Source of the DNA: a virus | Virus record (IMG/VR): IMGVR_UViG_3300044712_000455 | Span: 1 to 44,691 of that record | Length of the DNA: 44,691 nt | Direction: 5' to 3' (one strand) | Part shown: positions 6,144-44,673 of the stretch, one piece after another | Position numbering within the stretch: position 1 is the stretch's first letter | Layout of the letters: each line of letters starts with the position of its first letter | Position numbers and translations under genes: made by a program | The notes under the pieces: generated by a model | The model's input: only the letters and a program-made list of their open reading frames with translations | Database searches by the model: none | Told to the model about the DNA's origin: nothing

Positions 6144-7055
6144 TTATGGGAATGAGATACTAGCGCTAGGTGACAATGATGCTGATGGGCTAGCTGATGC
6201 ACTAGGAGACATTGATGGACTAGATGATCTGGACATTGAGCTAGAAGGACTAGTTGATCCAGAAGGAGACTGTGAACGAGATGCTGATCTTGATGCAGAA
6301 CTAGATGGCGATCTGGATGCTGATGGCGATGTAGATGCGCTAGATGATCCAGATGGTGATAGAGATGCGCTGGCTGATGCTGATGCTGAGCTAGATGGCG
6401 ACAATGATCCAGACGGAGAAGCTGATCCAGATGGTGACAACGACCTAGATGCTGAACTAGATTGACTCAATGACCTAGATGCCGATGCAGAGCTAGAAGA
6501 AGATGGCGATAAAGAGGCTGATGGCGACAATGACCTTGATGCTGATGCAGAGGTAGAAGGCGAGCTACTGGCAGAACCAGATGCACTTCCAGATTGTGAT
6601 CTCGATGCAGAGGCCGATGGACTTCTGGACGCAGATGAGCTAGCAGAAACAGAGGCCGAGCTGGAAGGAGATAGCGATGGCGAGCTAGATGCAATTTCTG
6701 GATCTGGTAATTGCCATACTGCTGAGCTAGATGTTCCCACGTTTACATATGCGTTTCTGCCTAATTTGTTTAACAAAAAGAAAACAGCGCCCTGTTTAAA
6801 TCCTTCATAGCCTGTAGGTAAAGTATTGCCTTCTGCTTCTAGGATGTTGGCGGTAGTTTCTCTATTCCTTGGAGATTGAGCTGTTGAGATTCTGTCAGTA
6901 TCCCATCTTAAAATTCTATTTGTCCTATAAGGGGTTAGGGCTGTTAAAAAGTTAGTTTCTCCGGTAGTTCTTAGACCACTAGATTTAGCCTCGATTCGTG
7001 CGAGTTTATCTTGCGTCTCCCTTGGTAAATCATATTTAGTTTGAAATGTTGCCAT
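6144..7055 (-). CDS. Virion protein with C-terminal mucin-like Ser/Pro repeat tract
   Basis: A 303-residue protein. Residues 1-120 form an ordinary folded or helical domain starting MATFQTKYDLPRE and ending near VWQLPDPE. Residues 122-300 are a low-complexity tract in which nearly every second residue is serine, alternating with Pro, Ala, Leu, Arg, Gln or Gly. The gene lies directly after the coat gene, so this is probably a head fibre or decoration protein whose tail projects outward. The tract resembles mucin-type acceptors and lies beside the phage's own glycosyltransferases. Function is inferred from composition and position. Confidence 0.75.
   Translation of the reverse strand: MATFQTKYDLPRETQDKLARIEAKSSGLRTTGETNFLTALTPYRTNRILRWDTDRISTAQSPRNRETTANILEAEGNTLPTGYEGFKQGAVFFLLNKLGRNAYVNVGTSSSAVWQLPDPEIASSSPSLSPSSSASVSASSSASRSPSASASRSQSGSASGSASSSPSTSASASRSLSPSASLSPSSSSSASASRSLSQSSSASRSLSPSGSASPSGSLSPSSSASASASASLSPSGSSSASTSPSASRSPSSSASRSASRSQSPSGSTSPSSSMSRSSSPSMSPSASASPSASLSPSASISFP
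6147..6690 (-). repeat. Ser-X dipeptide repeat tract (head-type protein)
   Basis: A hexanucleotide-period stretch encoding alternating serine. It includes Arg, Gln and Gly at the variable positions more often than the large tract at 9.6-12.4 kb. Both TCN and AGY serine codons occur. Confidence 0.85.
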
Positions 7056-9544: not shown

Positions 9545-9574
9545 AGTATACCACTTAAATGAAGATGTAGTAAA
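9545..9574 (-). promoter_or_regulatory. Promoter for the 9.5-kb small head gene
   Basis: Minus strand: TTTACT (9574-9569), an 18-base spacer and TATACT (9550-9545). The ATG at 9537 is seven bases after the -10 box. The promoter overlaps the last codons of the giant Ser/Pro protein. Confidence 0.55.
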
Positions 9575-12500
9575 TGCCATCAAGTTGAATTGCCAATCTA
9601 CCATCTACCAAAATTACAGGTTGTGCAGAAGCACCAAGAGACAGCGACGAACTAGGCGATATAGAAGCAGAAACAGAAGGTGATTCAGAAGCAGAGGTGG
9701 ACAAACTAGGAGACAAAGAAGCACTGGCGCTTGAGCTAGGAGACAGCGAAGAAGATGGACTTAGAGATGAAGAAGGCGATATAGAAGCAGAAACACTTTC
9801 ACTTGGCGATATAGATGCAGAAGGAGAAACGGAAGGAGATTCACTGGCACTTGGACTTATAGATGAACTAGGAGACAAAGAAGGGGAAGCAGAAGCAGAT
9901 GATGATTTACTTTCAGACGAGCTTGGACTTATAGACGCTGAAGGAGATGTACTGGCAGAGGGAGATAGTGATGGGCTAACACTTGGACTAACAGATGGGC
10001 TTTGGGATGGTGAGGCAGACTTAGATGCACTAGAACTTGGGCTTAGTGATGGCGACTGAGAAGGACTAGTAGAAGGCGATTGAGAAGGGCTTTCGCTAGC
10101 ACTAGTGGAACTAGACGGAGATAGGGATGGTGAATTACTTGGACTTTGGGATGGACTTTCACTAGCAGAACTACTTTTACTTGCAGACGATGAAGGACTT
10201 AGACTAGGCGATTGAGATGGCGATGTACTAGCAGATTGACTAGGAGATTGACTAGCGCTAGCAGAAGAAGAAGGAGACAAAGAAGGTGATTGAGATGGCG
10301 ACATACTGGGAGACTGAGAAGGCGAAGTAGAAGCAGAAGCAGAGCTAGAAGGACTTAATGATGCAGAAGGGCTAAGCGATGCACTTTGGCTTGGTGATTC
10401 ACTTGACGATTGGCTAGGACTGCTAGAACGGCTAGCTGATGAACTAGGAGACAAACTGGGACTTTGTGATGGGCTTTCACTGGGCGAAACTGATGGACTT
10501 ACAGAAGAAGATCCAGCAGAAACAGACGAACTAGGAGATAAAGAGGCTGATGGCGATAATGAGGCACTTGGAGACAAGCTAGCTGATGGTGATAATGATG
10601 GACTATTGGATGGTGAAGCAGACGATGATTGACTAGCACTCGCACTTCTGGAAGCAGAAGAGGAAGGACTAAGGGATGCGCTAGGAGATAGAGAGGGTGA
10701 TTCACTAGGACTTTGGGAAGGTGATTGACTAGGCGATTGGCTGGCACTGGCCGAGCTAGACGGAGACAGAGACGGGCTTTGAGAAGGCGATTGGCTAGCA
10801 GATTGGCTAGGAGATTGAGAAGCTGAAGCAGAACTACTTGGCGACAACGATGGACTATTGCTAGGGCTTTGACTAGGAGACTGTGATGGTGACGCTGATG
10901 CACTCGCACTAGAACTAGGCGACACGGAGGCAGACGGACTTAAAGAAGGACTACTACTTGGTGATTCAGATGCACTTGCACTAGGCGAGCTACTGGCGCT
11001 AGTAGACGATGATGGAGACAACGATGAACTAGCGCTAGGTGATTCACTAGGACTTTGGGAAGGACTAGCTGAGCTAGAAGCACTACTACTTGGACTCAAT
11101 GACTTGGACTCGCTCGGAGACTGGCTTGGTGATTGAGACGCACTACCGCTGGCACTGGCGCTTGAGCTAGGACTTAAACTTGCACTAGGGCTTAATGACG
11201 GGCTTTGGGATGGACTATTAGAACTTGAAGCTGATGGTGAACTTGATGGACTAGCAGATGAGGAAGGACTTAAAGACCTTGATGCGCTAGGACTCTCGCT
11301 TGCTGATTGTGAAGGGGACGAGCTAGCGCTAGCTGAGCTAGATGGGCTTAAAGATGAAGACGGGGACAGAGAGGCAGATGGACTTAAACTTGGTGATTGA
11401 CTAGGAGACTGAGACGGACTCTGGCTAGGAGATTGAGATTTGCTTTCAGATGCAGATGCAGATCTGGACGCACTAGATGAGGGGCTAAGGGATGCAGACG
11501 GGGACAAGGAAGCGCTAGGTGACAAAGAAGCGGAAGGAGATAATGATGGACTATTGCTAGGGCTTTGAGATGCAGAGGCGCTTGGAGAACTACTTGCACT
11601 TGCTGAGCTGCTAGGACTTAATGATGGACTAGGACTTAAAGAGGCTGAGGGAGATAAAGAAGGTGAATTACTTGGACTGGCTGATGGACTCTGGGATGGA
11701 CTAGCTGAACTACTAGCACTAGAGCTTGGTGACAAACTAGGTGATTGTGAGGGTGATTGTGATGCAGACTGTGAAGGACTTTGAGAACTACTAGTAGAAC
11801 TAGACGGAGACAGTGATGGACTTTGAGATGGGCTTTGGGAAGGAGATTGGCTAGGACTGCTAGACGCAGACATAGAGGAAGAAGGAGACAAACTGGCCGA
11901 TGGTGACAAACTAGGCGAATTAGAGGGAGACTGGCTAGGGCTTTGGGAAGGAGAAGCAGAACTAGAAGCAGAAGAAGAAGGGCTAAGGGAAGGCGATTGA
12001 GAAGGGCTAGTGGATGCAGAAGCACTAGGGGAACTACTGGCGCTAGCACTAGAGCTTGGACTAAGGGATGGCGAAGGACTTAAAGATGCGCTAGGCGACA
12101 AAGACGGAGATTGGCTTGGTGACATTGAAGGACTTTGACTAGGCGATTGAGATGGTGAAGTGGATGCAGAAGCAGATTTACTTTCACTAGATGACGGACT
12201 TAAAGAACTAGAAGGTGATAAGGAGGCACTAGGAGACAAAGAACTAGAGGGAGACAAGCTAGGTGAATTACTTGGCGAAGTTGATGCAGAAGCAGACGGA
12301 CTAGAACTAGCTGAGCTAGAGCTAGACGGAGACAAAGAGGCCGAAGGAGAGAGTGAACCAGAAGGAGATAGAGAGGGTGAAACACTAGAAGAACCTGGGG
12401 TAGAATTAACATTATCAATCCAAGGTGTTTTTGCCGAGCCACTTTCATTGTCTATTACAACTTTAAATTTACACGCATAAACACGATTCAAAGCATCACT

Positions 12501-13718
12501 TCTTGACCATAAATTACTCCAACTACCACCATCTGAGGATACATCCCAATAAATAGTTCCCGATAAATGTCTCAATCTCATCCAGCGATGGGTTGTGGCG
12601 TTATATGTGGTTGAACCTACAGAAGTTTCAGTGCCATTTTCTGTAGCAATACCCTCTAGGGTAGTATCGTGAATCCAGAAAAAACTCTCATATATAACTT
12701 GAGAATCTGTTGCTTTAAAAGTAGCAACATGAGCTGCATGTGTACCATCATGAAAGTATTCCCAAAAGATAGAACTATCCGTTAAATCATAATAATTATC
12801 ACTAGCTAGGAGGATTGAGGTTTGCCCTGAAGTAACTTCAATTCTATTATTTTGCTCTGTTAAATTGACAGTATCCCATAAAGCACCATCTATAGAATTG
12901 TCATTAAAATTGTCTATTAATGTTTCAATCTTAGAGTAAGTTCCGGGCGAAGGACTAGTACTAGGACTTGGTGATCTGGATGCACTAGCTGATCTTGACG
13001 GAGACAGTGATGGACTTTGGGAAGGCGAGATACTTGTAGAGGGAGATATGGATGGTGAAATACTTGAAGATCCAAAAATACTATAAAAAGTGGCCGATAA
13101 AGCAGTGACTGTTTGAGAGGCATACGTCCAAGTAATCGTCGTTGTACCGCCAGACTCAGTAGCAGTTGCACAGCTTGCGGTTTGATTTCCCATATCAATT
13201 TCTGATCCAGAAATTTCAGTTCCAGTAGTAACTGATAAAGAAGATGGCGTACCGCCAGTTGACGTGCCACCACCAACAGCCACAGAATTAGTCTTAGCGG
13301 GACTAACAACACTTGAAGCTGAACCAGATCCAGTACCAGTATCAAAGTTATCGTAAGTGATAGAAGTAGCCGATGCGTCTATTAACCCAATCGCCGTTGC
13401 CTGAACGTCAGTACACGAACCAGCCATTGTAACTGTAATGTTTTTTGGTCCTTGAATAGTTGGCAATACCTTGTACCAAATAGAAACAAAATCGTTTGCT
13501 ACACGATATCTTCCGCCAGCAATTTCAGTCAAAGCCTGATTTACACCCACAGAATCCCACACAACCGAAGAAACAACAGAATCGGTAGCAGAAGTATCCA
13601 TACCCGTTACAACCACAACAAGACACTTAGTATTTGCTGCTGTTGTGTGGGCAAAGCTAAAGCCAGAAGAATTAGCTTGATTGCCCGAATTAGTTGGTGT
13701 TCCTAGTGTTATTGCCAT
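9555..13718 (-). CDS. Giant mucin-like virion protein (1387 residues, about 900-residue Ser-X tract)
   Basis: The largest gene. Residues 1-217 are a Thr/Ser/Val-rich beta domain. Residues 218-262 are a short Ser/Pro linker. Residues about 263-443 are a second beta domain with FNDNSIDGALWD and WMRLRHLSGTIYWDVSSDG, resembling a concanavalin/laminin-G-like lectin fold. Residues about 444-1359 are an alternating Ser-X tract. The last about 28 residues form a hydrophobic cap (PVILVDGRLAIQLDGIYYIF). The tract has no long exact repeats and uses TCN and AGY serine codons interchangeably. It lies between portal-region and scaffold genes, so a head fibre or long appendage is likely. I infer that it is the main acceptor for phage-encoded glycosylation. 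Confidence 0.85.
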   Translation of the reverse strand: MAITLGTPTNSGNQANSSGFSFAHTTAANTKCLVVVVTGMDTSATDSVVSSVVWDSVGVNQALTEIAGGRYRVANDFVSIWYKVLPTIQGPKNITVTMAGSCTDVQATAIGLIDASATSITYDNFDTGTGSGSASSVVSPAKTNSVAVGGGTSTGGTPSSLSVTTGTEISGSEIDMGNQTASCATATESGGTTTITWTYASQTVTALSATFYSIFGSSSISPSISPSTSISPSQSPSLSPSRSASASRSPSPSTSPSPGTYSKIETLIDNFNDNSIDGALWDTVNLTEQNNRIEVTSGQTSILLASDNYYDLTDSSIFWEYFHDGTHAAHVATFKATDSQVIYESFFWIHDTTLEGIATENGTETSVGSTTYNATTHRWMRLRHLSGTIYWDVSSDGGSWSNLWSRSDALNRVYACKFKVVIDNESGSAKTPWIDNVNSTPGSSSVSPSLSPSGSLSPSASLSPSSSSSASSSPSASASTSPSNSPSLSPSSSLSPSASLSPSSSLSPSSSESKSASASTSPSQSPSQSPSMSPSQSPSLSPSASLSPSPSLSPSSSASASSSPSASASTSPSQSPSLSPSSSASSSASPSQSPSQSPSNSPSLSPSASLSPSSSMSASSSPSQSPSQSPSQSPSLSPSSSTSSSQSPSQSASQSPSQSPSLSPSSSASSSASPSQSPSASPSNSPSLSPSASLSPSPSLSPSSSASASSSPSASASQSPSNSPSLSPSASLSPSASLSPSASLSPSSSASRSASASESKSQSPSQSPSQSPSQSPSLSPSASLSPSSSLSPSSSASASSSPSQSASESPSASRSLSPSSSASPSSSPSASSSNSPSQSPSLSPSASLSPSSSASASGSASQSPSQSPSESKSLSPSSSASSSASPSQSPSESPSASSSLSPSSSTSASSSPSASASESPSSSPSLSPSASVSPSSSASASASPSQSPSQSPSNSPSLSPSSSASASQSPSQSASQSPSQSPSLSPSSSASASQSPSQSPSQSPSESPSLSPSASLSPSSSASRSASASQSSSASPSNSPSLSPSASLSPSASLSPSASLSPSSSVSAGSSSVSPSVSPSESPSQSPSLSPSSSASRSSSPSQSSSESPSQSASLSPSASLSPSSSASASTSPSQSPSMSPSQSPSLSPSSSASASQSPSQSASTSPSQSPSLSPSSSASKSSSASESPSQSPSNSPSLSPSSSTSASESPSQSPSTSPSQSPSLSPSSSASKSASPSQSPSVSPSVSPSLSPSASTSPSASISPSSSESKSSSASASPSLSPSSSISPSASESPSVSPSASISPSESVSASISPSSSLSPSSSLSPSSSASASLSPSLSTSASESPSVSASISPSSSLSLGASAQPVILVDGRLAIQLDGIYYIFI
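9640..12393 (-). repeat. Large Ser-X dipeptide repeat (mucin-like tract)
   Basis: About 915 codons in which serine occupies almost every second position. Pro, Ala, Leu, Gln, Asn, Glu, Lys, Arg, Thr, Met or Val occupy the others, in phrases such as SPSLSPSASLSPSSS. A smaller tract of the same type is at about 12945-13070 in the same gene. The degenerate DNA makes collapse or expansion during assembly possible. Confidence 0.9.
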
Positions 13719-30749: not shown

Positions 30750-31967
30750 TTATGCATTAAATTTACCAAGTTTGACATCTTCAATATCTTCTCCTGCTAC
30801 CCCATATGGAGAGTAGGTATTATAAAGTCTATAAATCTCCTCTACAGTCAGTCCACCGGCATTGCCATAGTGTCCAACAACGTCTCTAAGTGTCGCACCC
30901 CTTTGAACATCATTTATAAGGTTTTGAGTAGTTGCTTGCTGATCTGCTTCTTTTCTTTCGCTTACTGTTCCACCACCGCTTGAGCTTGGTTTACTTGCTG
31001 CTATATTTTGAGTCTTTAATATTTCTCCGGTAGTAGGATCAATTAGGGTAAAGCCTTGGTTTGTACCATCGTCAAATTGTATTAATTGCGTCTGTTGATT
31101 TTTCTTCTTGTTAGCAGCAATAGCAGAATTGATCATATCGCTTGAAATACCAGTTGCCCTAGTAAGACCTGCAATCGTTTCACCATTGGCGCTATCCAAA
31201 GCTCCAGCAGCTAATAAAGTCTGGAATTGATTAAATGCTTGCTGTGCTTGCTGTGAATTAATATCAAATTGCTTAGTCTGCAAGTTTAGTTGTGTTTCAA
31301 TGTCTGCTTTTTTCATGGCAATTTGGTTTTGAATGGCCTGAGCATCAGCGCTAAATTTATCGTCTAGCTTCCTTAGCCTTCCGGTCATTGTGGCCTCTGA
31401 TAGATAAGGGTTGTCTTTAATCTTTGACACTGCTTGATTGTAAGCCTTGGTCTTTTCTGCTAAACCATCTTCAACTGCTGTAATTCCAGAAGAATCAAAA
31501 AGATTTTTATACAATACCGGTAAATCTATTGTAGGCTGGTTAAACATTGCTCCAGTGGCCATTCCTCCTCCGCCTGCTCCTAAGTATTCCCTAGCCAAAT
31601 CATCATATCCACGACCTGCAATAGCAGCCTTGGCTGTTTCTGGTGTGTGTCCTTTGGCTGTCATGGCAGCGATCAAAGCAGCTTCTCCTCCTTGCTGTTG
31701 CATTGGTTGAGCCTGCATTTGTGCTTGTGGCTGTCCAGTAGGAACAGCTTGCCCTTGGGGTTGCGCTTGTGGTTGAGCCTGTGGCTGTTGAGTGGTTGCT
31801 CCTCCATTCTTGAGCATATTCAAAAGTGTCGTGTTTTGTTCTGCACTACCTGTATAGTTTTGTATTCCTTTTGAAGCAGCTAATTTAGCACGAGAACCAT
31901 AACTGGAGTCCTGTCCAGTAGACCTTAGATAATCAACTATTGAGTTTCCTGTATAAATTTTAACCAA
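30750..31967 (-). CDS. Internal virion protein with cell-wall-binding-like N-terminus
   Basis: A 405-residue protein. There is no ATG near the N-terminus; TTG at 31967 follows GGGGAGGA closely, and ATT at 31958 would be better spaced. Residues 4-50 (IYTGNSIVDYLRSTGQDSSY, then QNYTGSAEQNTTLLNML) look like a short cell-wall-binding repeat found in some phage lysins. A Gln/Pro/Ala-rich linker (about 54-95) follows, then coiled coils. It is the first of three large ejection-region genes. Probably a third internal or tail-tip protein; identity not established. Confidence 0.6.
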   Translation of the reverse strand: MVKIYTGNSIVDYLRSTGQDSSYGSRAKLAASKGIQNYTGSAEQNTTLLNMLKNGGATTQQPQAQPQAQPQGQAVPTGQPQAQMQAQPMQQQGGEAALIAAMTAKGHTPETAKAAIAGRGYDDLAREYLGAGGGGMATGAMFNQPTIDLPVLYKNLFDSSGITAVEDGLAEKTKAYNQAVSKIKDNPYLSEATMTGRLRKLDDKFSADAQAIQNQIAMKKADIETQLNLQTKQFDINSQQAQQAFNQFQTLLAAGALDSANGETIAGLTRATGISSDMINSAIAANKKKNQQTQLIQFDDGTNQGFTLIDPTTGEILKTQNIAASKPSSSGGGTVSERKEADQQATTQNLINDVQRGATLRDVVGHYGNAGGLTVEEIYRLYNTYSPYGVAGEDIEDVKLGKFNA

Positions 31968-32520
31968 TCCTCCCCTCTAGTTGTTTATTGTTTATTCCCC
32001 ACGTCTTTGTATTTTCGGGCATAGGTTTTCCAAAAGTAATTTCGTAGTGACACTTCATACAAAGAGTTCTGCAATTATTTATGTCAAATCTTAACTCCAC
32101 ATACTCTGCCCAAGGTTGAATATGGTCTACTTGGAGGATGCCTCCTCTAACCTGACACAATTGGCAAGTATAGTTATCACGCTCTAACACTGTTTTTTGA
32201 ATTTCCATCTTAAATTTATTTCTATCCATTCTATTTTGTGTCGTTATTCCGCCTTTCCAATTTGGATTTGTTTTTCCGCTAGGAACTTGACCTTTCTTAA
32301 ATGATCCCGAATTTGCTCTCATCAAACCTTTTATACCCTTATTCCAAGCCTGAGGCATAACACCTGTTTTGCCTTTATTCCAAGGCGTTACTCCCTTTTT
32401 AAAACCTCCACGCTTACCACTGAAAACTTTAAGCCTTCTTCCTTCAGCGTAGGCTTTTTTTAAGCCTTCACTTATAATTCTACTTCTTTCTGTTGGGTTG
32501 CTGTATATTCCTTTTGGCAT
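31960..32520 (-). CDS. HNH homing-type endonuclease with NUMOD3-like repeats
   Basis: A 186-residue protein. I choose ATG 32520 (MPKGIY..., a typical start of this family) over TTG 32532. Residues 36-90 hold several basic F/P..KG repeats (FKKGVTPWNKGK, AWNKGIKG, SFKKGQVPSGK) of NUMOD3 type. The HNH core has C119/C122, VDHIQPW with Asp132-His133, Asn148-Asn149, and C154/C157-His158. It is wedged between the adaptor and ejection genes and overlaps the latter by eight bases. It is likely a selfish mobile endonuclease, though some HNH proteins assist packaging. Confidence 0.88.
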   Translation of the reverse strand: MPKGIYSNPTERSRIISEGLKKAYAEGRRLKVFSGKRGGFKKGVTPWNKGKTGVMPQAWNKGIKGLMRANSGSFKKGQVPSGKTNPNWKGGITTQNRMDRNKFKMEIQKTVLERDNYTCQLCQVRGGILQVDHIQPWAEYVELRFDINNCRTLCMKCHYEITFGKPMPENTKTWGINNKQLEGRIG

Positions 32521-32521
32521 A

Positions 32522-33229
32522 TTAGATGTCAAACCTTCCTCTCATATCTCGACTATTTCTTGCTCCAAAAAAGTCCGGAACGTCAAAAAATGGCATATTC
32601 TTTTCATACTTAGCCATTTCCTGTCTAATTTTACCCCAAGAAGTAGCCAAAATCTGTTTTGCTTCCATACTTTTAAATTCAGCGCCTTTATCGTTGTCTG
32701 CCTTGGCTCTAAGTATTGCCATTGCTTCCAGTACAACTGCTTCATTTACTTCTGGTGTTGAGTAAGAAAAGACAGTGGTATCAGAATCACTTGTCATTGT
32801 AGTTACTACCTTTTTACCCCAGACACATATTTCTAAATCAGCAGTCGTTGGAACTGGAAAGATAAAATACTGCCTATTAAAGTTTGCCCATTTTTTACTT
32901 GTGTCATCGGAATTGTCTGTTTTCCAATTCAAATAATCGTCAAAAGTTAGTGGTGATCCATCTGGATCCTCACCCCATCTATCGCCATTTACTGTTAATT
33001 TCCAGATAGAATTTGATCTCCAAGTATCCGGATAATCATAATATTCTTGACTTGCGACTGTTACAGTTTTCTTTGCATCTTGAAGCTCTGGCCAAGGAAA
33101 AAGACCTGCTGCTTTTCTGTAGGCTCTATTGACGGCCAAATCTATTGCTGTTGGCGAGTATAGGGTAGATTCGCTTCCAACTGTTAAGTCTGATTGTATC
33201 GCTGTACGCAGATCACTTAGTGTTTCCAT
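32522..33229 (-). CDS. Head-tail adaptor/connector protein
   Basis: A 235-residue protein. Its N-terminal helix SPTAIDLAVNRAYRKAAGLF followed by PWPELQ is the signature of podovirus head-tail adaptors (SU10 adaptor/gp4-gp11-like). A beta sandwich then has TVASQEYYDYPDTWRSNSIW. The C-terminal helices (ILRAKADNDKGAEFKSMEAK) carry the Asp/Lys-rich 'KAD..KGAEF' commonly seen in this family. It would dock under the portal. It has its own promoter of the conserved structural class, with ATG seven bases after the -10 box. Confidence 0.8.
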   Translation of the reverse strand: METLSDLRTAIQSDLTVGSESTLYSPTAIDLAVNRAYRKAAGLFPWPELQDAKKTVTVASQEYYDYPDTWRSNSIWKLTVNGDRWGEDPDGSPLTFDDYLNWKTDNSDDTSKKWANFNRQYFIFPVPTTADLEICVWGKKVVTTMTSDSDTTVFSYSTPEVNEAVVLEAMAILRAKADNDKGAEFKSMEAKQILATSWGKIRQEMAKYEKNMPFFDVPDFFGARNSRDMRGRFDI

Positions 33230-35469: not shown

Positions 35470-37083
35470 TTAATTAAAATAAACTCGGCTTCTAATAATG
35501 TTTGGTGTTGTGTTTGAGGCTGGATTTAATACAATTTTTTGCTCAACTACATCTGCTTCAAATCCTAGTCTGAAAGTAGCCTTTTTGCCTCCTGTTGTCG
35601 AAAATGCGCTACCGCCTTCTGCTGTATATGCCCTATTCCAGTCTGAGCCATGATTAACTTTAAAATACATTTCGACACTGCATCCTGCTGGAAGTGCTTC
35701 CATAAATAGCTCCGCATACTTGTAGTTTGTAATTTGCTCTGCGTTTTTAATAGGAGATCTAAACTCAAGTGATTCATAAGTACCAGTAGCCTTATTGTCT
35801 GGATCTACCGCTCTTACTCCATAACTGCTTCCGTCTCGATAAGAAGCAATTGTAACTCCGTCAATGTTTGCAACTGCGCCAATCTCATCTACATCCATCT
35901 CATACTCTAGCGTCATTGTAAAAGGCTGCTCTTTGTTTCTCCTGCCGTAATAATAAAGGCCGTTGTAACCTGAATCTGCCCCAAAGACTCCCCAGATGGA
36001 CATATTGGATAAAGTTTGCCTGTCTGTCCAAGAGAGCGCTGTTTGCTCCCAGTCAAAGACTTGAATCTGCTCTGATTCACTAGTTGCGCCTCCGGGGTTT
36101 ACTCTTCCACCACCGGGAAATCGTTTTGTAGGAAGTACGTCAACAAAGTTAGAAAATACCAATTCTCCATCATCTCCTATTTGAGCTAAAGGTACTTCAC
36201 AATCTATCATGCCATTTATTCCCTTGTCTGGATATCCTGCTTTGTAGCTTCCAACCACTGCTCTTCCATTTCTTTCCATAATTGATTTAATGTAGTTTCC
36301 GGGTATTACATCAAGTGCTTCGTTTGTAAAAGAATCGTCATATCCAACCATTGCTAGTTTTGATCCATTAGCAATGATATTTGATCCACCTATTTGCTTC
36401 ATTGTGTGCCAATCAGCGCCAGTTAGATTCTCGGCAACTGTTTCCACGTCTGTCCAGTTAGAATTACCCGGTATTTGTTTTTGTTTTACCTTAGTATCTG
36501 TCGCCCACTGTAAATAAGTATTTCCTGTCGTTGATGGTTTTTCTTCTGCTCCTTTAATAGCTCCATCTGGATCACGATATACATTTTTCCAATAACCAGT
36601 TGAGTATCTTCTGTAGATATATCCTCTATCCCCAAAGCCATATGTATTTCCATCTGAGCATTTAATTAAAAACAATATTAAATCTTGGAATATGTTTCCC
36701 AAGCCTGCGCTAGGAGATAAAGAAGGCGAAATGGAACTTGAACTAGAAGCACTAGAAGATGCAGACAAAGAGGCCGAGCTTGATGGCGAAGATGAGGCGG
36801 AAGGAGATAAGGAGGCCGATTTTGACAAAGAAGAAGTAGGACTAGGAGAAACAGACCTAGAAGCTGAACTGGACGGCGATTGAGAGGCAGAAGGAGACAA
36901 AGACATAGAGGAAGAGTGGCTTAAACCAAGTAACCCCTCTTCTTTCATGGCTTGACCACAAGAGAGAGTATTATTAGCTTTCCTGATATCTAAATTCTTT
37001 AGGAACTTAGCAGATCCTTTTGGTCCTCTATCGTTATAGCTACTAATTCCTCCAATCCAATCTTCAGTTTGAAATATAGGCAT
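35470..37083 (-). CDS. Tail nozzle/tube-like protein with Ser-X insert
   Basis: A 537-residue protein. The N-terminus FQTEDWIGGISSYNDRGPKG and LKNLDIRKANNTLSCGQAM match a family of beta-propeller-like podovirus tail proteins. An alternating-serine insert occupies residues about 56-126, then a long beta-rich domain follows (for example DLILFLIKCSDGNTYGFGDR). The insert separates the N-terminal strand pair from the rest, so it would loop out of a folded protein. It has a conserved-class promoter, with ATG six bases after the -10 box. Confidence 0.7.
   Translation of the reverse strand: MPIFQTEDWIGGISSYNDRGPKGSAKFLKNLDIRKANNTLSCGQAMKEEGLLGLSHSSSMSLSPSASQSPSSSASRSVSPSPTSSLSKSASLSPSASSSPSSSASLSASSSASSSSSISPSLSPSAGLGNIFQDLILFLIKCSDGNTYGFGDRGYIYRRYSTGYWKNVYRDPDGAIKGAEEKPSTTGNTYLQWATDTKVKQKQIPGNSNWTDVETVAENLTGADWHTMKQIGGSNIIANGSKLAMVGYDDSFTNEALDVIPGNYIKSIMERNGRAVVGSYKAGYPDKGINGMIDCEVPLAQIGDDGELVFSNFVDVLPTKRFPGGGRVNPGGATSESEQIQVFDWEQTALSWTDRQTLSNMSIWGVFGADSGYNGLYYYGRRNKEQPFTMTLEYEMDVDEIGAVANIDGVTIASYRDGSSYGVRAVDPDNKATGTYESLEFRSPIKNAEQITNYKYAELFMEALPAGCSVEMYFKVNHGSDWNRAYTAEGGSAFSTTGGKKATFRLGFEADVVEQKIVLNPASNTTPNIIRSRVYFN
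36705..36918 (-). repeat. Ser-X dipeptide insert in nozzle-like protein
   Basis: About 70 codons of alternating serine with Pro, Ala, Leu, Lys, Arg or Val, inserted near the N-terminus of an otherwise folded tail protein. Confidence 0.8.
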
Positions 37084-37120: not shown

Positions 37121-39214
37121 CTAATAGTTTTCTGGAGGATATATTCTTGTATACTCGTTGTTTTGGCTGGAATAGTTATTGGAATAACTTGTGTTTTTGT
37201 CAGAATAGTTATTGGAATATTCAATCGGAAATATTAAATCAAAGTAATCAGTGGATAAAGAATAAGTAGTATCTGAAGCTGCTAATTGATAAACCCTACA
37301 AGCAACAATCCCTCCACCATCTTTATAATTAGTTAGGTTTGCCAGTCTTACTTCCATCTCAAAGTCTGCGTTTGCCGGAGAAGAAGAATTAGTTAGTATT
37401 GTTTCCCATCCGTTTGTCGTGTGATAGATTTGTAGATAAACAGGAGTACCAGAAGGAGCGAGTGTTGATCTACCTTCAAATTCCACCTTACAAGTTGTTT
37501 GACTTCCGGCAAAGTTTTTAAATTCATGGATTAAATATTTACCCTGTCCAGAAATTGCTACTCTGGTGTTATCTCTTACAGAAGCATTTGCTTCTTCTTG
37601 CTCTGAATATAAAGTTTCTAAATCACTATCATTGTTTGGTAAATTGTCTGCTGCTTGACGGCTATATGATGCATACCCCATTGATGGAGAAGGAGAAAAT
37701 GAGGCACTAGCAGATCTTGATGGAGATATTGACGGACTTTCAGATGCAGAAGCAGATGGACTCTCTGATGCAGAAGGAGATTGAGAAGCTGATGCGCTCA
37801 AAGATGGAGACATAGATGGTGATTCAGAAGCAGACTGAGATCTTGATGCGCTTGCCGAAGCCGACCTTGAAGCGCTTCTTGATGCAGATGCGCTAGGTGA
37901 CAAAGAAGCGGACGCACTAACAGAGGCGCTTGAAGAAGGAGATAAAGACCTAGATACTGAACTACTAGGACTTGTGGAGGCGGACGGAGACAAGGAGGCT
38001 GAGGCAGATGCAGATGCAGAGCTAGAGGCTGATGCTGAAGGAGACAAAGAGGCGCTTTGCCCGGCAAAATCTGTGTCTGTTGTGTCTGTAAAAGTTGGAG
38101 TGGTAGTACCAGTAACCGTATCATTATGATGTACCGCAATACGTCCAGCTCCACCATCTCCTCCTGATCTAAAGCCAACACCACCTGTACCACCAGACGC
38201 TAATAACTTAGTTGTTCCCAAAGTTGCAGTATCACATCCAATAAGAATAGATCCACCTGCCCCAGCTCCACCTCCTGTGTTGTCTGCGCTTGAGCTTCCA
38301 GTTGTTCCTCCATTTCCTCCTCCTACGTTTATTGTTCCAGATACAGAAATAGTTGCACCAAAAATAACCAAGATTCCTCCACCATTTCCACCTGATCCCG
38401 AATCAGCGTCTCCATTGCTTGCTCCACCGCCTCCAGCTCCTCCAAAAGTCATTGTGGTCAAGTCTGCTGCTCCAGATGTGCTTCCACCAGTTCCCTTTAC
38501 TGTTGCGCTTGCTTGATCTGTACCATTTGAACCAGCTACACCATTTCCTCCTCCGCCTCCACCAGCAATTCCATCTCCAGAATAAGCGCCTCCGCCTCCA
38601 TTTCCATTTGCAGAAGTTGAGGCACTACCAGCAGCAGCCGAACCCTCACCTTGAACTGCCTGAGTAGATGGTGAAGCCTTTGAAATTCCTCCTACAAATC
38701 CACCACCATTTGAAGGAGAGGTGTTTGCTCCATTTACGCCAGCAGTTCCAGTTCCGGTAATATCTCCTGTTACTGTTACAGTTCCGGTTGCGCCAAAGAC
38801 CAATATTCCACCGGTATTTCCATCCCAAGCCGGAATTGTCCACGTTCCAGATTGTACTGTTACATCTGTGTATTGTGGTATTTTTATAGCCTGTGCTTGT
38901 GATGAGCCAGAATCGGTATAGGTATATTGAAGTGCTGTCTGTAGGGTCAATGAAGTTGTACCACCACCAGAAGAGACTTTGTTTATTTCCCACTGCCCTA
39001 CACCAGTCCCTCTAGTTTGATGAATCAACAATAGGTCTCCATTTGCAAAAGTTGAACCAGAAGTAGTTAGTGTTGTAGAAGAAGAAGTACCGCTACAAGA
39101 ATCCTTGGTAAGAGTAGGAACTGTTGCAGAAGAATATGCACCATCGCCACCACTTCCAAAAGGCTGTCCAGTTTGAACCCTAGTGATTTTTTGCCAAGAA
39201 TTTAAAGTCGCCAT
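37121..39214 (-). CDS. Glycine-rich adhesin/tail fibre with Ser-X tract
   Basis: A 697-residue protein. Residues 1-115 are a Thr/Ser-rich beta domain. Residues about 120-385 are Gly-rich, with runs such as GGGGGNGVAGSNG and GGAGGGGASNGDADSG that suggest polyglycine-II or pectate-lyase-like packing. Residues about 390-511 are an alternating-serine tract. Residues about 515-697 are a beta-sandwich-like tip (CKVEFEGRSTLAPSGTPVYL, YLQIYHTTNGWETI). The gene directly follows the bifunctional glycosyltransferase. Glycine-rich tips bind receptors in other phages, and the serine tract is a likely glycan carrier. Confidence 0.75.
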   Translation of the reverse strand: MATLNSWQKITRVQTGQPFGSGGDGAYSSATVPTLTKDSCSGTSSSTTLTTSGSTFANGDLLLIHQTRGTGVGQWEINKVSSGGGTTSLTLQTALQYTYTDSGSSQAQAIKIPQYTDVTVQSGTWTIPAWDGNTGGILVFGATGTVTVTGDITGTGTAGVNGANTSPSNGGGFVGGISKASPSTQAVQGEGSAAAGSASTSANGNGGGGAYSGDGIAGGGGGGNGVAGSNGTDQASATVKGTGGSTSGAADLTTMTFGGAGGGGASNGDADSGSGGNGGGILVIFGATISVSGTINVGGGNGGTTGSSSADNTGGGAGAGGSILIGCDTATLGTTKLLASGGTGGVGFRSGGDGGAGRIAVHHNDTVTGTTTPTFTDTTDTDFAGQSASLSPSASASSSASASASASLSPSASTSPSSSVSRSLSPSSSASVSASASLSPSASASRSASRSASASASRSQSASESPSMSPSLSASASQSPSASESPSASASESPSISPSRSASASFSPSPSMGYASYSRQAADNLPNNDSDLETLYSEQEEANASVRDNTRVAISGQGKYLIHEFKNFAGSQTTCKVEFEGRSTLAPSGTPVYLQIYHTTNGWETILTNSSSPANADFEMEVRLANLTNYKDGGGIVACRVYQLAASDTTYSLSTDYFDLIFPIEYSNNYSDKNTSYSNNYSSQNNEYTRIYPPENY
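37682..38052 (-). repeat. Ser-X dipeptide tract in Gly-rich fibre
   Basis: About 120 codons of alternating serine with Ala, Pro, Leu, Arg, Glu, Gln or Val, lying between the glycine-rich region and the C-terminal domain. Confidence 0.8.
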
Positions 39215-39237
39215 TTACCAAAGTTTAGAAGAACCGA

Positions 39238-40896
39238 TTAGGTAAAGGGAAGTAAGTCGGCTTTATCCCAGCCGGGAACTTGATAATCTTCTGCTTCCTG
39301 CCAGTTAATAAGTAGCTGCTGATTTTTATACTGGTCTTTTCTCCATCTTTGACCTGTAGCATTTGCTCCATGCTTTATATCCACATTAGGAGTCTCAGAC
39401 TTCCATGTTTCGTACTTAAACTGATTAACCCAAGGGAATCTGCCATGCGTAAACGGCTCAAATCCCATATTACGCACCCAATTGTTAAATTCCCTATCAT
39501 CCATTGTTTTAGCTGCCTCTTCTGTGACCTTGTAGCGCTCTCTAAAGTGTGTCAATGCTGCATCACGATAAACACACAACCCCGACAATTGATTAACGTC
39601 ATAGTGCAATACATGGCCATCAGTAGAGCGGAGTAACCACACGTTTTGATTGTAGTAAAAGACATCTTCTTTTGGAGGACTAAAGTCAAAGTGAGTACCG
39701 CTATAAAGCACATCATGCTCACAAAAGAAAATAATATCCGATTTAGAATTTTCTAGCGCTGCCATAATCTGCTTAAACATAGTCAAATACCCTCTCTTGC
39801 CATGAGGAAAAAAGATATTCTTGCTACCAAAGTTTAATTTTTTGATTGACGAGCTAACAATTGGTATTCTTTTTTCTTCGCTGATTTGAAGGAGTTTGTC
39901 TCTAACAGGCTTTGCGATCTTTTCATCTAATTGACTATCTGTGTAATAAATTATGCCTTTTGTAATTCCCCATTCAGGAGGATTAAATTTATCCAGCAAC
40001 CAAGACATCTTGCGTGTAGCTAGTGGCCATTTATCCTTTTGAAACAATTCTCTGGACTTTTCACGATTTTCCATAACTTTATCTTGTGGATTAGAGTATG
40101 GGAAGCCAAAATCTCCGCCTCTAGTTCTAAACATATGTGCATACCAAGTGTTTAAATTGGCAATGACCCTTCCACCGGATAACCAAGTCTTACAAGCTAC
40201 TTCTACTCCTTGCTGTCCCCAACTGTGAAACTCTTCGCTACAAATATCCAATTCAAAATACTTCTGCTTTGTTAGCATGAAGCAAGATCCTTGAATAGAC
40301 ATTGTTTCTCGGTAATTGGTATCAAACGTGCCATCTAGTTTTTGTGCGCCTTTAATATTGTCTGCCCTTTTAGCCAGCTCCGAGAAATACTGGAAGTGCA
40401 TGGTCTTATCAAACCTAAAAGTAAATGTTTGCGGACTCTTCTTTGGAATCCAGACAACTTTTTTCTCTGTTGGAAGGCCACAAACTTCACAAGGACCAGA
40501 TGGAGATTGATATCTTTCGTGTCCATTCGCACAAACGAGGTTAAATACATGCAAGTTACGCATTAGCGGAATCATCGTTACGTCATCTCCTAGTTCAGCA
40601 AAAGCAGTAAGCATTTTTCTATCAAAGCCTTTATCAAAGGCACAATGAGCATCCACCTTCATAATATATTTGCCCTTGGCAATTTTGGCTGCCTGATTTG
40701 CTCCTGCTCTTTGTCCTACTGCTACCGGATTGTAGATAACAGTTACCCTTGGATCTGCTTTAAGTGGAGGGTTAGGCAAGTATCCATCTAGGATAACAAT
40801 AATTTCAGTATTTGCCTCTATGTTTGAGAGAATATCATCAACTGTGTGTCCAAGCCATTCCTCATTTCTCGCCGGGATTATGATTGAGAGATCCAT
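39238..40896 (-). CDS. Two-domain glycosyltransferase (GalNAc-transferase-like domain plus second GT-like domain)
   Basis: A 552-residue protein; ATG 40896 starts MDLSIIIPARNE, and upstream in-frame codons belong to the overlapping gene. Domain 1 (about 1-305) has DAHC at 82-85 and WGQQGVEVACKTWLSGG at 226-242, followed by NLNTWYAH. These are the same landmarks as in the two smaller transferases. A C-x3-H...C-x2-C insert (C122, H126, C136, C139) looks like a zinc ribbon. Domain 2 (about 310-552) has IIFFCEHDVLY and DIKHGANATGQRW, a second GT-A-like unit. It could add two successive sugars. Acceptor is inferred to be phage Ser-rich proteins. Confidence 0.85.
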   Translation of the reverse strand: MDLSIIIPARNEEWLGHTVDDILSNIEANTEIIVILDGYLPNPPLKADPRVTVIYNPVAVGQRAGANQAAKIAKGKYIMKVDAHCAFDKGFDRKMLTAFAELGDDVTMIPLMRNLHVFNLVCANGHERYQSPSGPCEVCGLPTEKKVVWIPKKSPQTFTFRFDKTMHFQYFSELAKRADNIKGAQKLDGTFDTNYRETMSIQGSCFMLTKQKYFELDICSEEFHSWGQQGVEVACKTWLSGGRVIANLNTWYAHMFRTRGGDFGFPYSNPQDKVMENREKSRELFQKDKWPLATRKMSWLLDKFNPPEWGITKGIIYYTDSQLDEKIAKPVRDKLLQISEEKRIPIVSSSIKKLNFGSKNIFFPHGKRGYLTMFKQIMAALENSKSDIIFFCEHDVLYSGTHFDFSPPKEDVFYYNQNVWLLRSTDGHVLHYDVNQLSGLCVYRDAALTHFRERYKVTEEAAKTMDDREFNNWVRNMGFEPFTHGRFPWVNQFKYETWKSETPNVDIKHGANATGQRWRKDQYKNQQLLINWQEAEDYQVPGWDKADLLPFT

Positions 40897-41654
40897 TGTT
40901 TGTTTCTGTCTAAAATAGATCTGGTTATCTCGGTATTGCATCCCATTGATTCTGCCCATGCACACCATGCATATACATCTTTTGGAATACATTTGCTATT
41001 CATTCCTCTTTTGTCTGGATAGATAAACGTCCACCATAGGTTAAACCTTGGGTCGTCCCCATACACTGCGTCTCGTATCGTGTAATAATCTACGCCGGCC
41101 TTTTCACAGACATCGTATAACTCCTGACACTGCGCAACTTTATAGGAAATAGCTCTGTTTTCGCTCAACTTAATAATTTCTGCCTCTAAATTGGTAACTT
41201 GAGTAATTTTCATGTTCGCATTGTAGACAGTGGTGTATAAATCAATTAGTTTTCTGCGATTTTCTACATCTCCGCCAATAATCATAAATGGCCTATCTTT
41301 CATTTCAAGCATAGGATGTGCTGGAGTCTCACCTAAGTATTCTGGTTGCATTACAATGTTTTTCTTGTATTTCTTTGACAGATAATCACAAGTTCCGGGA
41401 TTAACAGTTGACCTAATTACCAAAAGTGGAGCGTCACACCAAGCAACAACTTCTTCTACAATTGAAGTATCAAGCTCATTTTCTCCTTTAACTGGAGTTG
41501 GCACTCCGATAAAGACCACATCGCACTTATTTATATCCTCTTTTTCTACTAACCACCCCTCCATTAACACCGGATCATACACTAGGGCATCAGGAAACAG
41601 CTTAAACATTGCTTTTCCTACCCACCCGTATCCTACAATCCCCACTTTTGTCAT
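40878..41654 (-). CDS. Short UDP-glucose/GDP-mannose dehydrogenase-family protein
   Basis: A 258-residue protein. The NAD Rossmann motif is GIVGYGWVG (5-13). QPEYLGE (103-109) supplies the conserved Glu, and EIIKLSENRAISYK (159-172) supplies the Lys and Asn. SKCIPKDVYAW places the catalytic Cys at 222. The family normally has about 390-450 residues with a C-terminal UDP-binding Rossmann domain. Here the protein ends right after the catalytic Cys region, so that domain is missing. It may oxidise a sugar nucleotide using a dimeric partner or may bind a different substrate. ATGA overlap with the HAD gene. Confidence 0.78.
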   Translation of the reverse strand: MTKVGIVGYGWVGKAMFKLFPDALVYDPVLMEGWLVEKEDINKCDVVFIGVPTPVKGENELDTSIVEEVVAWCDAPLLVIRSTVNPGTCDYLSKKYKKNIVMQPEYLGETPAHPMLEMKDRPFMIIGGDVENRRKLIDLYTTVYNANMKITQVTNLEAEIIKLSENRAISYKVAQCQELYDVCEKAGVDYYTIRDAVYGDDPRFNLWWTFIYPDKRGMNSKCIPKDVYAWCAWAESMGCNTEITRSILDRNKQWISQS

Positions 41655-41941
41655 ATTTTTGGAAATTCTGCTGTATCGTCAATTAAGAGGTCTAGTGGAC
41701 ATTTTTTGTTCATAACTGCGTGGTATCTAACATTGTTTTTATCTAGCCATTCAAAAGTAGCAGTCATTAACCAGTTTTGCCTAGCGGTATAGATAATCAC
41801 AAAATCGTTTGGATAATAGGTTTCATTTATGTACTTAATCATATCTAGCCTTGGTTTTGCGTGTAAACAATCTTCCGCTGATATCCAATGCTCACCATCG
41901 CAAAGTGTGTTGTCTAAATCTACTCCTATTTTTCTTCTCAT
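41651..41941 (-). CDS. Small HAD-family phosphatase
   Basis: A 96-residue protein. The HAD nucleophile motif is GVDLDNTLC (Asp8 and Asp10), the motif II threonine is in VIIYTAR (Thr52), a lysine is near 80, and LLIDDTAEF supplies the motif IV acids (Asp88 and Asp89). It has no cap domain. In NDP-heptose synthesis a HAD enzyme (GmhB) removes the C7 phosphate; this protein is about half that length but could fill the step. It overlaps both neighbours by ATGA. Similar small HADs occur in capsule loci. Confidence 0.75.
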   Translation of the reverse strand: MRRKIGVDLDNTLCDGEHWISAEDCLHAKPRLDMIKYINETYYPNDFVIIYTARQNWLMTATFEWLDKNNVRYHAVMNKKCPLDLLIDDTAEFPKI

Positions 41942-42852
41942 TGTCTTATTTCAGTTATTGTTTCTTCTAAACCATCTTTTAGTTTAGTTTTGGCCTTCCA
42001 TCCACACATTAAATAAGCCTTTGAAGTGTTTCCCATCGTTTGCTGAGGCTCATAAACCGGATCAATGTAGTTAGGTATGTCATTTTTACCCATGATCATG
42101 CTTATCATATCATAAATTTCGTTTATTGTCGTGCTTTCCTCTGATCCGGCATTAAAAACTTCATTAACCGTATCTGTTACACATCCTAGTATCCAAAATA
42201 ACTCGGCGACATCTTTTACATAAATAAAATCCCTTGCTTGTGTGCCATCTCCAGTAATCTCTGATTTTTTTCCTTTGATCATGTTGTCTATAAACTTAGA
42301 TACGGCAGCAGCATATCCTCCTTTGGGGTTTTGTCTTGAGCCATAGACATTAAATGGCCTTACGATGTTGTATTCCAATCCATGTAGCTTGTAAAACAAT
42401 TCACAATACATTTCACCAGTTAGTTTTGTTACCGCATAGGGAGACATAGGATTGGGAATAGCCGTTTCAGGAGTAGGGAGATTGTGCTGTATTCCATATA
42501 GTGCAGTACTAGAAGCAAATATAAATCTTTTCACTTTGTTTTTCACGCACCAATTTAAGACGTTTAGCGTTCCAATTACATTTACTTCTTCAAACAAAAT
42601 AGGGTCTAGTATGGATTCTTGTGGTCTTGTTACAGCAGCTAAATGAAAAACAATATCAATATCTTTAAAGTGTTCCTCTTGATCAAAGAGTATTGATCCT
42701 TCTATTACTGTTAAATCTTTATGCTTAGGTAAATTAGTTCTTTTGCCTACCGAGAAGTTATCAATTACAACAACCTTGTTTCCATAAAACAAAAGGGTAT
42801 CCACTAAATGGCTTCCGATAAAACCTCCGCCACCAGTACAAAGTATTTTCAT
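41938..42852 (-). CDS. NAD-dependent nucleotide-sugar epimerase/dehydratase (extended SDR)
   Basis: A 304-residue, full-length protein. The NAD motif is TGGGGFIGSH (6-15), the catalytic Ser/Thr are in FASSTALYG (about 112-120), and the YxxxK pair is Tyr139 and Lys143 in YAVTK. The RPFNVYG and ARDFIYVKDVA blocks are typical of GalE- or WbpP-like enzymes. It would convert an NDP-sugar (4-epimerisation or similar). With the UDP-sugar-dehydrogenase-like enzyme it suggests that a UDP-sugar branch exists beside the heptose-type branch. ATGA overlap with the HNH gene upstream and the HAD gene downstream. Confidence 0.88.
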   Translation of the reverse strand: MKILCTGGGGFIGSHLVDTLLFYGNKVVVIDNFSVGKRTNLPKHKDLTVIEGSILFDQEEHFKDIDIVFHLAAVTRPQESILDPILFEEVNVIGTLNVLNWCVKNKVKRFIFASSTALYGIQHNLPTPETAIPNPMSPYAVTKLTGEMYCELFYKLHGLEYNIVRPFNVYGSRQNPKGGYAAAVSKFIDNMIKGKKSEITGDGTQARDFIYVKDVAELFWILGCVTDTVNEVFNAGSEESTTINEIYDMISMIMGKNDIPNYIDPVYEPQQTMGNTSKAYLMCGWKAKTKLKDGLEETITEIRQ

Positions 42853-43247
42853 CTGTAAAATTTCTTTCTAGCGCCAAACATTTCAAAGTCATATCTAGAA
42901 TGACACTTATTACACAGTCTTTGCCAATCGGTTAATTTTTTTAAATAACGACCACTTTTGTTGGACCATTGCATATTTTTAGTATTTGCACATTTTTCAC
43001 AAACCCCATATTTTGCCTTTCCCAAATTTCTTTCAACCCAATCATGTAGTCCATCCTTAGTTTTACCTCTAAAGCCACTTCTTCTACCTTTATTCCAGGG
43101 GATTGCTCCTTTAACAAAACTAGTAGGATTGTGCTTTAATAATTTATATTTTAAACCTTTTGGTCTAATTCTATGTTTATACCCACACTTCTTACAATAA
43201 TTGCCTTTATATGACTTAGGTTTTTCACAATCTAAACATAATTTCAT
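42849..43247 (-). CDS. HNH endonuclease with N-terminal zinc ribbon
   Basis: A 132-residue protein. An N-terminal four-cysteine ribbon is at C4, C7, C18 and C21. A basic linker with F.KG..PWNKG is followed by the HNH core C83/C86, QWSNKSG, and C112/C115-His116 (RLCNKCHSRYD). Unlike its neighbours it has its own promoter (TTTACA-17-TAGAAT), with ATG six bases after the -10 box, and it splits the sugar genes. This fits a mobile homing-type endonuclease inserted between the isomerase and epimerase genes. Confidence 0.85.
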   Translation of the reverse strand: MKLCLDCEKPKSYKGNYCKKCGYKHRIRPKGLKYKLLKHNPTSFVKGAIPWNKGRRSGFRGKTKDGLHDWVERNLGKAKYGVCEKCANTKNMQWSNKSGRYLKKLTDWQRLCNKCHSRYDFEMFGARKKFYR

Positions 43248-43283: not shown

Positions 43284-43712
43284 TCATAGTGCATTTTTAA
43301 TCTCGTGTACCATCTCCAAGTGTCTGTTCTCTAAAGCTCCATAATCCCGATCAGTAGAAAAGACTTCAAACTCAAAAATCGGCATACCCACCCTTTTAGC
43401 AGCAGTTATGGCGTTTACAATATTAGGAGATGTACCACTACAAGAGATCGTTATTAGTAGACACTGGCTTGGATCACACTTACTTGCATATAAATCAATC
43501 TGCCTGCTGTATGCATACTCGTATCCAAAATCATTTCCAATCATAGTAACAATAGAAACATTGCTGTTTAAACAGATTGCCATTACACCTTTGGAGAATA
43601 AATCATTACTTAGATGCTCTGCTGTTGCAGCACTTCCGCCATTTCCACATACAAACACAAACTTGGAGGCTTGAATCTTTTGTTTTAACTCTTTTAATAC
43701 AACTTTATTCAT
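43284..43712 (-). CDS. SIS-domain sugar-phosphate isomerase (GmhA-like)
   Basis: A 142-residue protein. The SIS signature CGNGGSAATAEHLSNDL is at 22-38, and the second phosphate-binding loop is SCSGTSPNIV. GmhA converts sedoheptulose-7-phosphate to D-glycero-D-manno-heptose-7-phosphate, the first step of NDP-heptose synthesis. The protein is about 50 residues shorter than bacterial GmhA (about 190), lacking the first helices, so it may be a minimal version. It overlaps the kinase gene by eight bases. DiaA-like SIS proteins are an alternative, but the kinase/nucleotidyltransferase context favours GmhA. Confidence 0.82.
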   Translation of the reverse strand: MNKVVLKELKQKIQASKFVFVCGNGGSAATAEHLSNDLFSKGVMAICLNSNVSIVTMIGNDFGYEYAYSRQIDLYASKCDPSQCLLITISCSGTSPNIVNAITAAKRVGMPIFEFEVFSTDRDYGALENRHLEMVHEIKNAL

Positions 43713-44673
43713 TGTGAAAAATTATCCTGCTACCATGATCTACAAATCTAAAAGGCAGTTCTTTATAGTCTATTAGTGCTTCTCTAATTTTAGACCTTTT
43801 ATTCGCCGGAAACATCACCAATAAAAATCCACCGCCTCCAGCTCCTACTACTTTTCCACCTATTGCTCCAGCTTCAAGTGCTGTTTGATACATCTCGTCT
43901 ATTCTTGCATTTGTTACTCTTTCGCTTAACTGTCTTTTTGCCATCCAATAAAAATCAAGCAACTTACCAAACCTCTTTAAATCGCCTACAAGCAGGCTTA
44001 CCGCTCCATCATGTGCTAATTGCTTGTTTTGATCCAGAAGTGCCTTGTTGTTTGCTACATTAAACGAGGAGAGTACCTTGTTTGTGTCTCTAGTCATACC
44101 AGTGTAAAAAAGCATTAAACTGTTGTTAAAGTCCTCTTTTACCGAGTCTGCCATTCCAATTTTGTTTCCAAACACGTCTCCGCCTTGCGTAAGCTCTATT
44201 AATCTAAGTCCACCTAGTGCAATAGCGTGTTGATCTTGTATTCCAATCGGTTTTTTAAGTATATCCAGCTCAATTTTTACAGCCTCTTCTGCTAACTGTT
44301 TAGAATTAACAGTTTCCCCTAAATAGGTATGTAGTGCGTTTAAAAGACCTATTGTTACAGCACTACTTGATCCAAGTCCGCTTCCTTGGCTTGGGATATC
44401 AGACAAAAATGAAATTTCTATACCCTTTTCAATTCCCAGCATCTTTAGAGCCGATTTAACTAGTTCATGCTTTAATTGATACGGCTTTTTAACAGTTTCT
44501 TTGATCGTGTAGTTAACTATGATCAAATCGTCAAATCTTTTCTTAACAATGCAGTAAATGTACTTATCAATGGTTGTAGATAGCACCAGTCCGCCATAAT
44601 TTAAAAAATACTCCCTAAAATCAGTATTTCCTCCTAAAAAGGATAGTCTAAGTGGTGTTTGAGAGATAATCAT
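43705..44673 (-). CDS. GHMP-family sugar kinase (heptose-7-phosphate kinase, HddA-like)
   Basis: A 322-residue protein. Motif 1 is [18 protein letters not shown] (6-23), motif 2 is the ATP loop GSGLGSSSA (97-105), and motif 3 is KVVGAGGGGFLLVMF near the C-terminus. The N-terminal GGNTDF and overall length match HddA/fucose-kinase-like GHMP enzymes, which phosphorylate a sugar at C1. With the GmhA-like isomerase, the HAD phosphatase and the nucleotidyltransferase it would build an NDP-heptose. Its first 36 codons are also present at 1-109 because of the terminal overlap. It starts with an ATGA overlap across the circle junction. Confidence 0.88.
   Translation of the reverse strand: MIISQTPLRLSFLGGNTDFREYFLNYGGLVLSTTIDKYIYCIVKKRFDDLIIVNYTIKETVKKPYQLKHELVKSALKMLGIEKGIEISFLSDIPSQGSGLGSSSAVTIGLLNALHTYLGETVNSKQLAEEAVKIELDILKKPIGIQDQHAIALGGLRLIELTQGGDVFGNKIGMADSVKEDFNNSLMLFYTGMTRDTNKVLSSFNVANNKALLDQNKQLAHDGAVSLLVGDLKRFGKLLDFYWMAKRQLSERVTNARIDEMYQTALEAGAIGGKVVGAGGGGFLLVMFPANKRSKIREALIDYKELPFRFVDHGSRIIFHNE

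Follow-up and report, generated by a model that had tools for sequence, protein, structure and literature searches.

GT27-like glycosyltransferases and alternating-serine proteins suggest a mucin-type O-glycosylation system encoded by a phage

The window analyzed here, i.e. the whole stretch of 44,691 nt, is the complete virus record IMGVR_UViG_3300044712_000455, the two ends of which share a 127-bp direct repeat. It holds four minus-strand genes with alternating-serine (Ser-X) tracts and a block of sugar genes that includes several glycosyltransferases (GTs), and it is the putative O-glycosylation system formed by these two sets of genes that is examined here. The sugar-gene block extends across the junction of the circle, as had been stated in an original prediction made for this DNA. 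After joining the ends, the genes encoding a TagD-like nucleotidyltransferase (106-492) and a GHMP kinase (43705-44673) overlap by 4 nt, and they adjoin or overlap likewise in the relatives L007, L019, and L023. The tract-bearing proteins and the adjacent head gene are as follows.

6144-7055, minus strand: head-module Ser-X protein with a conserved 120-aa N-domain and a 185-aa tract (6147-6701, minus strand; 102 serines); the capsid gene lies directly upstream
7154-8260, minus strand: major head protein; synteny anchor
9555-13718, minus strand: 1387-aa Ser-X protein, probable appendage or fibre, without Pfam match; 981 aa of tract (9621-12410 plus 12936-13088, minus strand; 540 serines) around non-repetitive domains
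35470-37083, minus strand: tail-module protein with a 79-aa Ser-X tract (36697-36933, minus strand; 43 serines); orthologues in 8 loci
37121-39214, minus strand: Ser-X protein with a 133-aa tract (37670-38068, minus strand; 66 serines); immediately downstream of the long GT gene

In total, the tracts comprise about 1,380 residues including 751 serines, and serine makes up 5.6% of the residues in ten other genes of this phage. A DNA pattern for alternating serine gave 562 matches, compared to none in 100 dinucleotide shuffles, which rules out a chance origin. Tract serines are encoded by both TCN and AGY codons with frequent switches between them (154 of 330 steps in the longest tract). The mixture of codons and the conserved serine phase also rule out a DNA-repeat artefact as the source of the tracts; since the two codon types are mixed along the tracts, selection acts on the protein, and the pattern is maintained at that level. 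Across 33 distinct orthologues of the head-module protein (some of them cut by contig ends), tract length ranged from 91 to 321 aa. On-phase residues in these sequences were 95% Ser, and the alternate position varied freely (Ala 27%, Pro 22%, then Leu, Val, Gly, Lys, and others). The prediction of four virion-type serine-tract proteins was thus confirmed with respect to the tracts, which are present in all four; that the proteins are of virion type is probable from their position and their relatives. In other contigs, Ser-X proteins carry laminin-G/concanavalin-like or CBM96 domains, so that a role as appendage stalk fits.

The block of sugar genes consists of the following elements.

106-492, minus strand: cytidylyltransferase-like nucleotidyltransferase (TagD / HldE C-domain type), by profile match
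489-1307, minus strand: weak GT4-like protein, possible fourth GT (Glyco_trans_1_4, E 0.02); found in 8 loci
1304-1864, minus strand: weak RmlD-like SDR of 186 aa (Pfam)
1843-2472, minus strand: Methyltransf_24 methyltransferase (Pfam)
2472-3119, minus strand: Methyltransf_24 methyltransferase (Pfam)
3113-3637, minus strand: methyltransferase-like gene without Pfam match, conserved in the block (13 loci)
3630-4589, minus strand: second short GT2 glycosyltransferase with a DAHC (DxH) motif (Pfam)
4502-5380, minus strand: short GT2 glycosyltransferase, GT27-like (Pfam; AlphaFold2 model, pLDDT 88.5)
39238-40992, minus strand: long GT2 glycosyltransferase, GT27-like, with a C-terminal extension (Pfam); the start MDLS of most relatives lies near 40890 in this phage
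40878-41654, minus strand: CxPKD-containing nucleotide-sugar dehydrogenase without C-terminal domain; its gene is the partner of the long GT gene in relatives
41651-41941, minus strand: short HAD-like phosphatase of 96 aa, weakly assigned by profile match
41938-42852, minus strand: NAD-dependent epimerase/dehydratase, a strong SDR (profile match)
42849-43247: HNH-type gene, called from its Cys/His pattern, with no Pfam match above cut-off
43284-43712, minus strand: shortened, GmhA-like SIS isomerase (profile match)
43705-44673, minus strand: GHMP sugar kinase, matching HddA (heptose-7-phosphate kinase) best but scoring under the curated cut-off

This gene content agrees with the original prediction in its main components, with several assignments being weaker than stated. 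Three of the four GTs are clear GT2 proteins (Pfam E 3e-17 to 8e-11) and the fourth is the weak GT4-like protein; two of the three methyltransferases have a Pfam match (Methyltransf_24), and one of the two SDR enzymes (at 41938, not the weak one at 1304) is a strong assignment. Dehydrogenase, isomerase, kinase, and nucleotidyltransferase were all found, but the phosphatase is only the weak HAD-like gene. The minus-strand block is not uninterrupted either, as the HNH-type gene is inserted between the SIS and SDR genes, which adjoin in relatives. Also, two serine-tract genes do flank the block, but on the head side a Tad2-like (Thoeris anti-defence) gene (5381-5623; Pfam PF11195 above cut-off) intervenes. 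In many relatives, too, a Tad2-like gene separates the head Ser-X gene from the first GT. Another HNH gene, this one clear, is located at 31960-32532.

By sequence profile and predicted fold, the phage GTs resemble enzymes that glycosylate Ser/Thr residues on peptides. The best PDB matches for the profiles of both the short and the long GTs were polypeptide GalNAc-transferases (GT27), which move GalNAc from UDP-GalNAc onto Ser/Thr of a peptide. The short-GT profile matched GT27 with E 1e-10 over positions 5-267, i.e. its full length, and most other GT2 structures matched only over the N-terminal hundred residues or so. For the AlphaFold2 model of 4502-5380, all of the top 50 Foldseek matches in the PDB were GT27 enzymes (E 1.5e-15 to 1.6e-13). 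D82/H84 and H223 of the short GT are invariant in 18 sequences and align with DAHC and GHVFR of 1xhb; likewise, D114/H116 are invariant in eight long GTs. This resemblance also bears on the suggestion that the sugar genes glycosylate or hypermodify the phage DNA and that the tracts are unrelated to them. Decoration of DNA by phage GTs is well established (as cited in PMC12619734). However, fold and linkage point to peptide acceptors, and no nucleotide-hypermodification genes were recognized among the genes scanned, so we consider DNA as the target extremely improbable.

Co-occurrence of tracts and transferases was compared from three directions, i.e. starting from the capsid, from the GT, and from the tract. 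The capsid-relative set consisted of capsid homologues in IMG/VR and of capsid homologues among the terminase loci. Of the 41 loci with at least 700 nt downstream of the capsid gene, 38 have a Ser-X gene as the next gene there, and a homologous GT was present in all 17 loci extending at least 2.6 kb beyond the Ser-X gene. The three capsid relatives without tract (L083, L084, and L088) are all distant, and a GT profile search of L084 and L088 detected no such GT. Methyltransferase genes usually accompany the GT/Ser-X core in relatives.

The linkage is not confined to the capsid clade. Searching with the GT alignment yielded 80 loci, and 27 of the 31 contigs of at least 20 kb hold a Ser-X tract; an unrelated GT2 used as control query returned two loci only and was thus uninformative. 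Twelve contigs with neither a homologous capsid nor a homologous terminase still pair a GT with a Ser-X tract. As the terminase-similarity test also missed L043, which clearly belongs to the clade, absence of terminase similarity is weak when taken alone, and it is on the capsid result that the argument rests. The distance between the closest GT and Ser-X genes was determined for 17 loci outside the capsid clade: the two overlap or lie within 50 nt of each other in 10 cases and within 750 nt in 16. One GT-bearing locus (L304:7219-7395) contains an alternating threonine (T-X) tract plus a short Ser-X stretch.

For the tract-first comparison, a Ser-Pro pattern gave usable loci, and a TC-only pattern returned mostly poly-Ser or dinucleotide noise. 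The class considered (mixed Ser-X tract of at least 150 aa on a contig of at least 40 kb) was picked after the list had been seen, short contigs being uninformative. All four contigs of this class carry the GT; L124 has the same capsid and the remaining three do not. The GT was absent from 20 of 20 random contigs, and the GT27-like GT from all 28 terminase-relative records (controls together 0/48; Fisher test against 4/4, p 4e-6, indicative only). Other GT2 types were present in 7 of 31 terminase relatives. In contrast to the 27 of 31 GT-bearing contigs, no Ser-X tract was seen in the stretches read of 30 long terminase-relative contigs; the terminase relative with a tract, L049, belongs to the capsid clade, and the others, mostly without this capsid, are essentially tract-free. 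The expected co-occurrence of Ser-X tracts and transferases in related phages was therefore found from all three directions, and together with the GT27 resemblance it bears out the notion of dedicated phage transferases tied to the tracts.

Alternatively, the Ser-X tracts could be unmodified flexible or elastic spacers, with the sugar block altering the host surface (serotype conversion, superinfection exclusion, or receptor release). Phage GTs are known to change host serotype (PMC12619734), nucleotide-sugar genes in phages of Patescibacteria are interpreted in a groundwater study as auxiliary genes for the host (PMC12911398), and the four GT contigs without tract would fit as well. This explanation is unlikely in our view, as it predicts neither the adjacency or overlap of GT and Ser-X genes across lineages nor the appearance of the GT in tract-first sampling, and it also leaves the likeness to peptide-glycosylating GT27 enzymes unexpected.

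Taking these observations together, we consider it probable, from gene content, linkage, and modeled fold, that the phage brings a mucin-type O-glycosylation system of its own, which acts on four probable structural proteins. Several findings weigh against this reading. Contigs L284, L285, L308, and L315 (22-32 kb) carry several GT27-like GTs and no Ser-X tract; these contigs may be incomplete, or the GT may also act elsewhere. Other kinds of tracts (poly-Ser, SSSSE, and SSP-rich) occur without GT, including the SSP-rich L389 (28 kb). Contigs of one lineage are not independent, hence p-values overstate the support. The N-domain of the head Ser-X protein gave no significant fold match against PDB and viral models, and thus no match to a known virion fold. 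Finally, the ricin-type lectin domain of GT27 was not found in the phage enzymes, the short form ending after the catalytic domain; for this reason we use the term GT27-like and do not place them within that family. Among the SSSSE-type repeats, the largest reading frame noted spans 2,097 residues (L184:3-6293), in a 22-kb contig without GT.

In the proposed mechanism, the GT27-like GTs (4502-5380, 3630-4589, and 39238-40992) would transfer a sugar to the alternating serines, with the head-module protein beside the capsid gene and the tail or appendage proteins as putative acceptors. In this phage, the other genes of the block would produce or trim that sugar, through a heptose-like nucleotide-sugar route comprising SIS isomerase, GHMP kinase, possibly the HAD phosphatase, and nucleotidyltransferase, followed by SDR and dehydrogenase; O-methylation of the sugar is probable as well. 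The particle may thereby gain a stiff, hydrated brush or stalk of glycans, which could serve reach, stability, or the binding or avoidance of cell-surface glycans. Shielding against antibodies, a purpose named originally, appears unlikely given that the relatives come from metagenomes and from bins of the candidate phyla radiation (CPR).

With respect to the donor, SIS and GHMP kinase best matched heptose-pathway enzymes and the nucleotidyltransferase matched heptose and glycerol-phosphate types, all scoring far below curated cut-offs; by these similarities, the three genes suggest an activated heptose. GHMP kinase was detected in only 7 of 31 contigs and is absent from most tract-bearing relatives. 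The data therefore do not support a self-made activated sugar as something common to these phages. This phage and some relatives have donor synthesis as an accessory, and the core consists of GT plus Ser-X gene.

One capsid relative was found in a Candidatus Woesebacteria bin. In the same class, Microgenomates (CPR), the GT is held by 8 of 110 sampled genomes, and a second bin of that class (L467) carries the full syntenic block. A CPR host is a lead only, since binning can misplace phage contigs and one class was sampled. Another bin of this class contains a Ser-X tract of 993 residues (L469:8977-11955), with GT and methyltransferase genes next to it.

Similarities to four known systems were considered. 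Animal mucin O-glycosylation by GT27 enzymes shares with the phage genes the closest PDB fold, the DxH metal motif, the distal His, and the W/YG..E motif, as well as Ser-dense, Pro/Ala-rich acceptors. Unlike GT27, the phage enzymes are lectin-less and have a length of about 290 aa, or of 530-584 aa in the form with a different C-terminal part; unlike in the animal system, the acceptors are strictly Ser-X, and the genes for enzyme and acceptor are neighbours. Serine-rich repeat (SRR) glycoproteins possess an O-glycosylated alternating-serine acceptor domain with variable residues in between and linked GT genes (PMC6973325). The phage shares the alternating-serine domain and the linked GT genes, but these are situated beside capsid and tail genes, and the enzymes are GT27-like and not GtfA/GtfB. 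No GtfA/GtfB-type match was obtained among the block genes scanned (which include only one weak GT4-like gene), and no Sec-like gene of an accessory Sec export system among the genes scanned, which did not include every ORF.

The SRR system is also relevant for the possibility that the tracts are glycosylated but host enzymes add the first sugar, the phage GTs merely extending the glycan. Known systems do separate priming from extension, e.g. GtfA/GtfB followed by further GTs for SRR adhesins (PMC6973325), and the phage has several GTs. Yet these GTs themselves resemble the priming GT27 enzymes, and the linkage is explained without any host gene; we therefore regard priming by the host as very unlikely.

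Che8-type mycobacteriophage virions have phage-encoded GTs and modified capsid and tail proteins (Freeman et al. 2023, as cited in PMC11256854 and PMC12619734); according to these citing accounts, the glycans are attached to the C-termini of capsid and tail-tube subunits. Here, the predicted acceptors are instead separate proteins with long Ser-X tracts offering tens to hundreds of potential sites. As for synthesis of NDP-D-glycero-manno-heptose (GmhA, HddA, GmhB, and a nucleotidyltransferase), the phage SIS and GHMP kinase have their best matches in this set, but scores remain far below curated cut-offs and the phosphatase is only 96 aa long. In GenBank phages, the region gave no match by megablast, and tblastn revealed no relative of either GT in the 50,697 records covered. 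No matching phage GT27/mucin or serine-rich virion system was found in the open-licence literature, although a prior description elsewhere is possible.

We lean slightly towards a broader interpretation, in which a compact, transferable mucin cassette, i.e. a lectin-less GT27-like enzyme and an alternating-serine acceptor with donor and methyltransferase genes that can be exchanged, has been passed among unrelated phages, at least some of them probably infecting Microgenomates (CPR), and coats heads and tail appendages with dense O-glycans. If true, a prokaryotic virus would carry out mucin glycosylation of the GT27 type. In a few isolates, phage enzymes are known to glycosylate the virion. 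Here, enzyme and predicted acceptor make up a recognizable module, which reappears in different lineages of phages and to which either component leads by sequence alone. Mucin-type glycosylation in phages can thus be predicted and tested, and glycobiology is offered small GT27-like enzymes paired with likely substrates. Nucleotide-sugar and lectin-domain genes of uncultured phages, commonly called host auxiliary metabolic genes (e.g. in Patescibacteria phages; PMC12911398), may instead build the virus particle.

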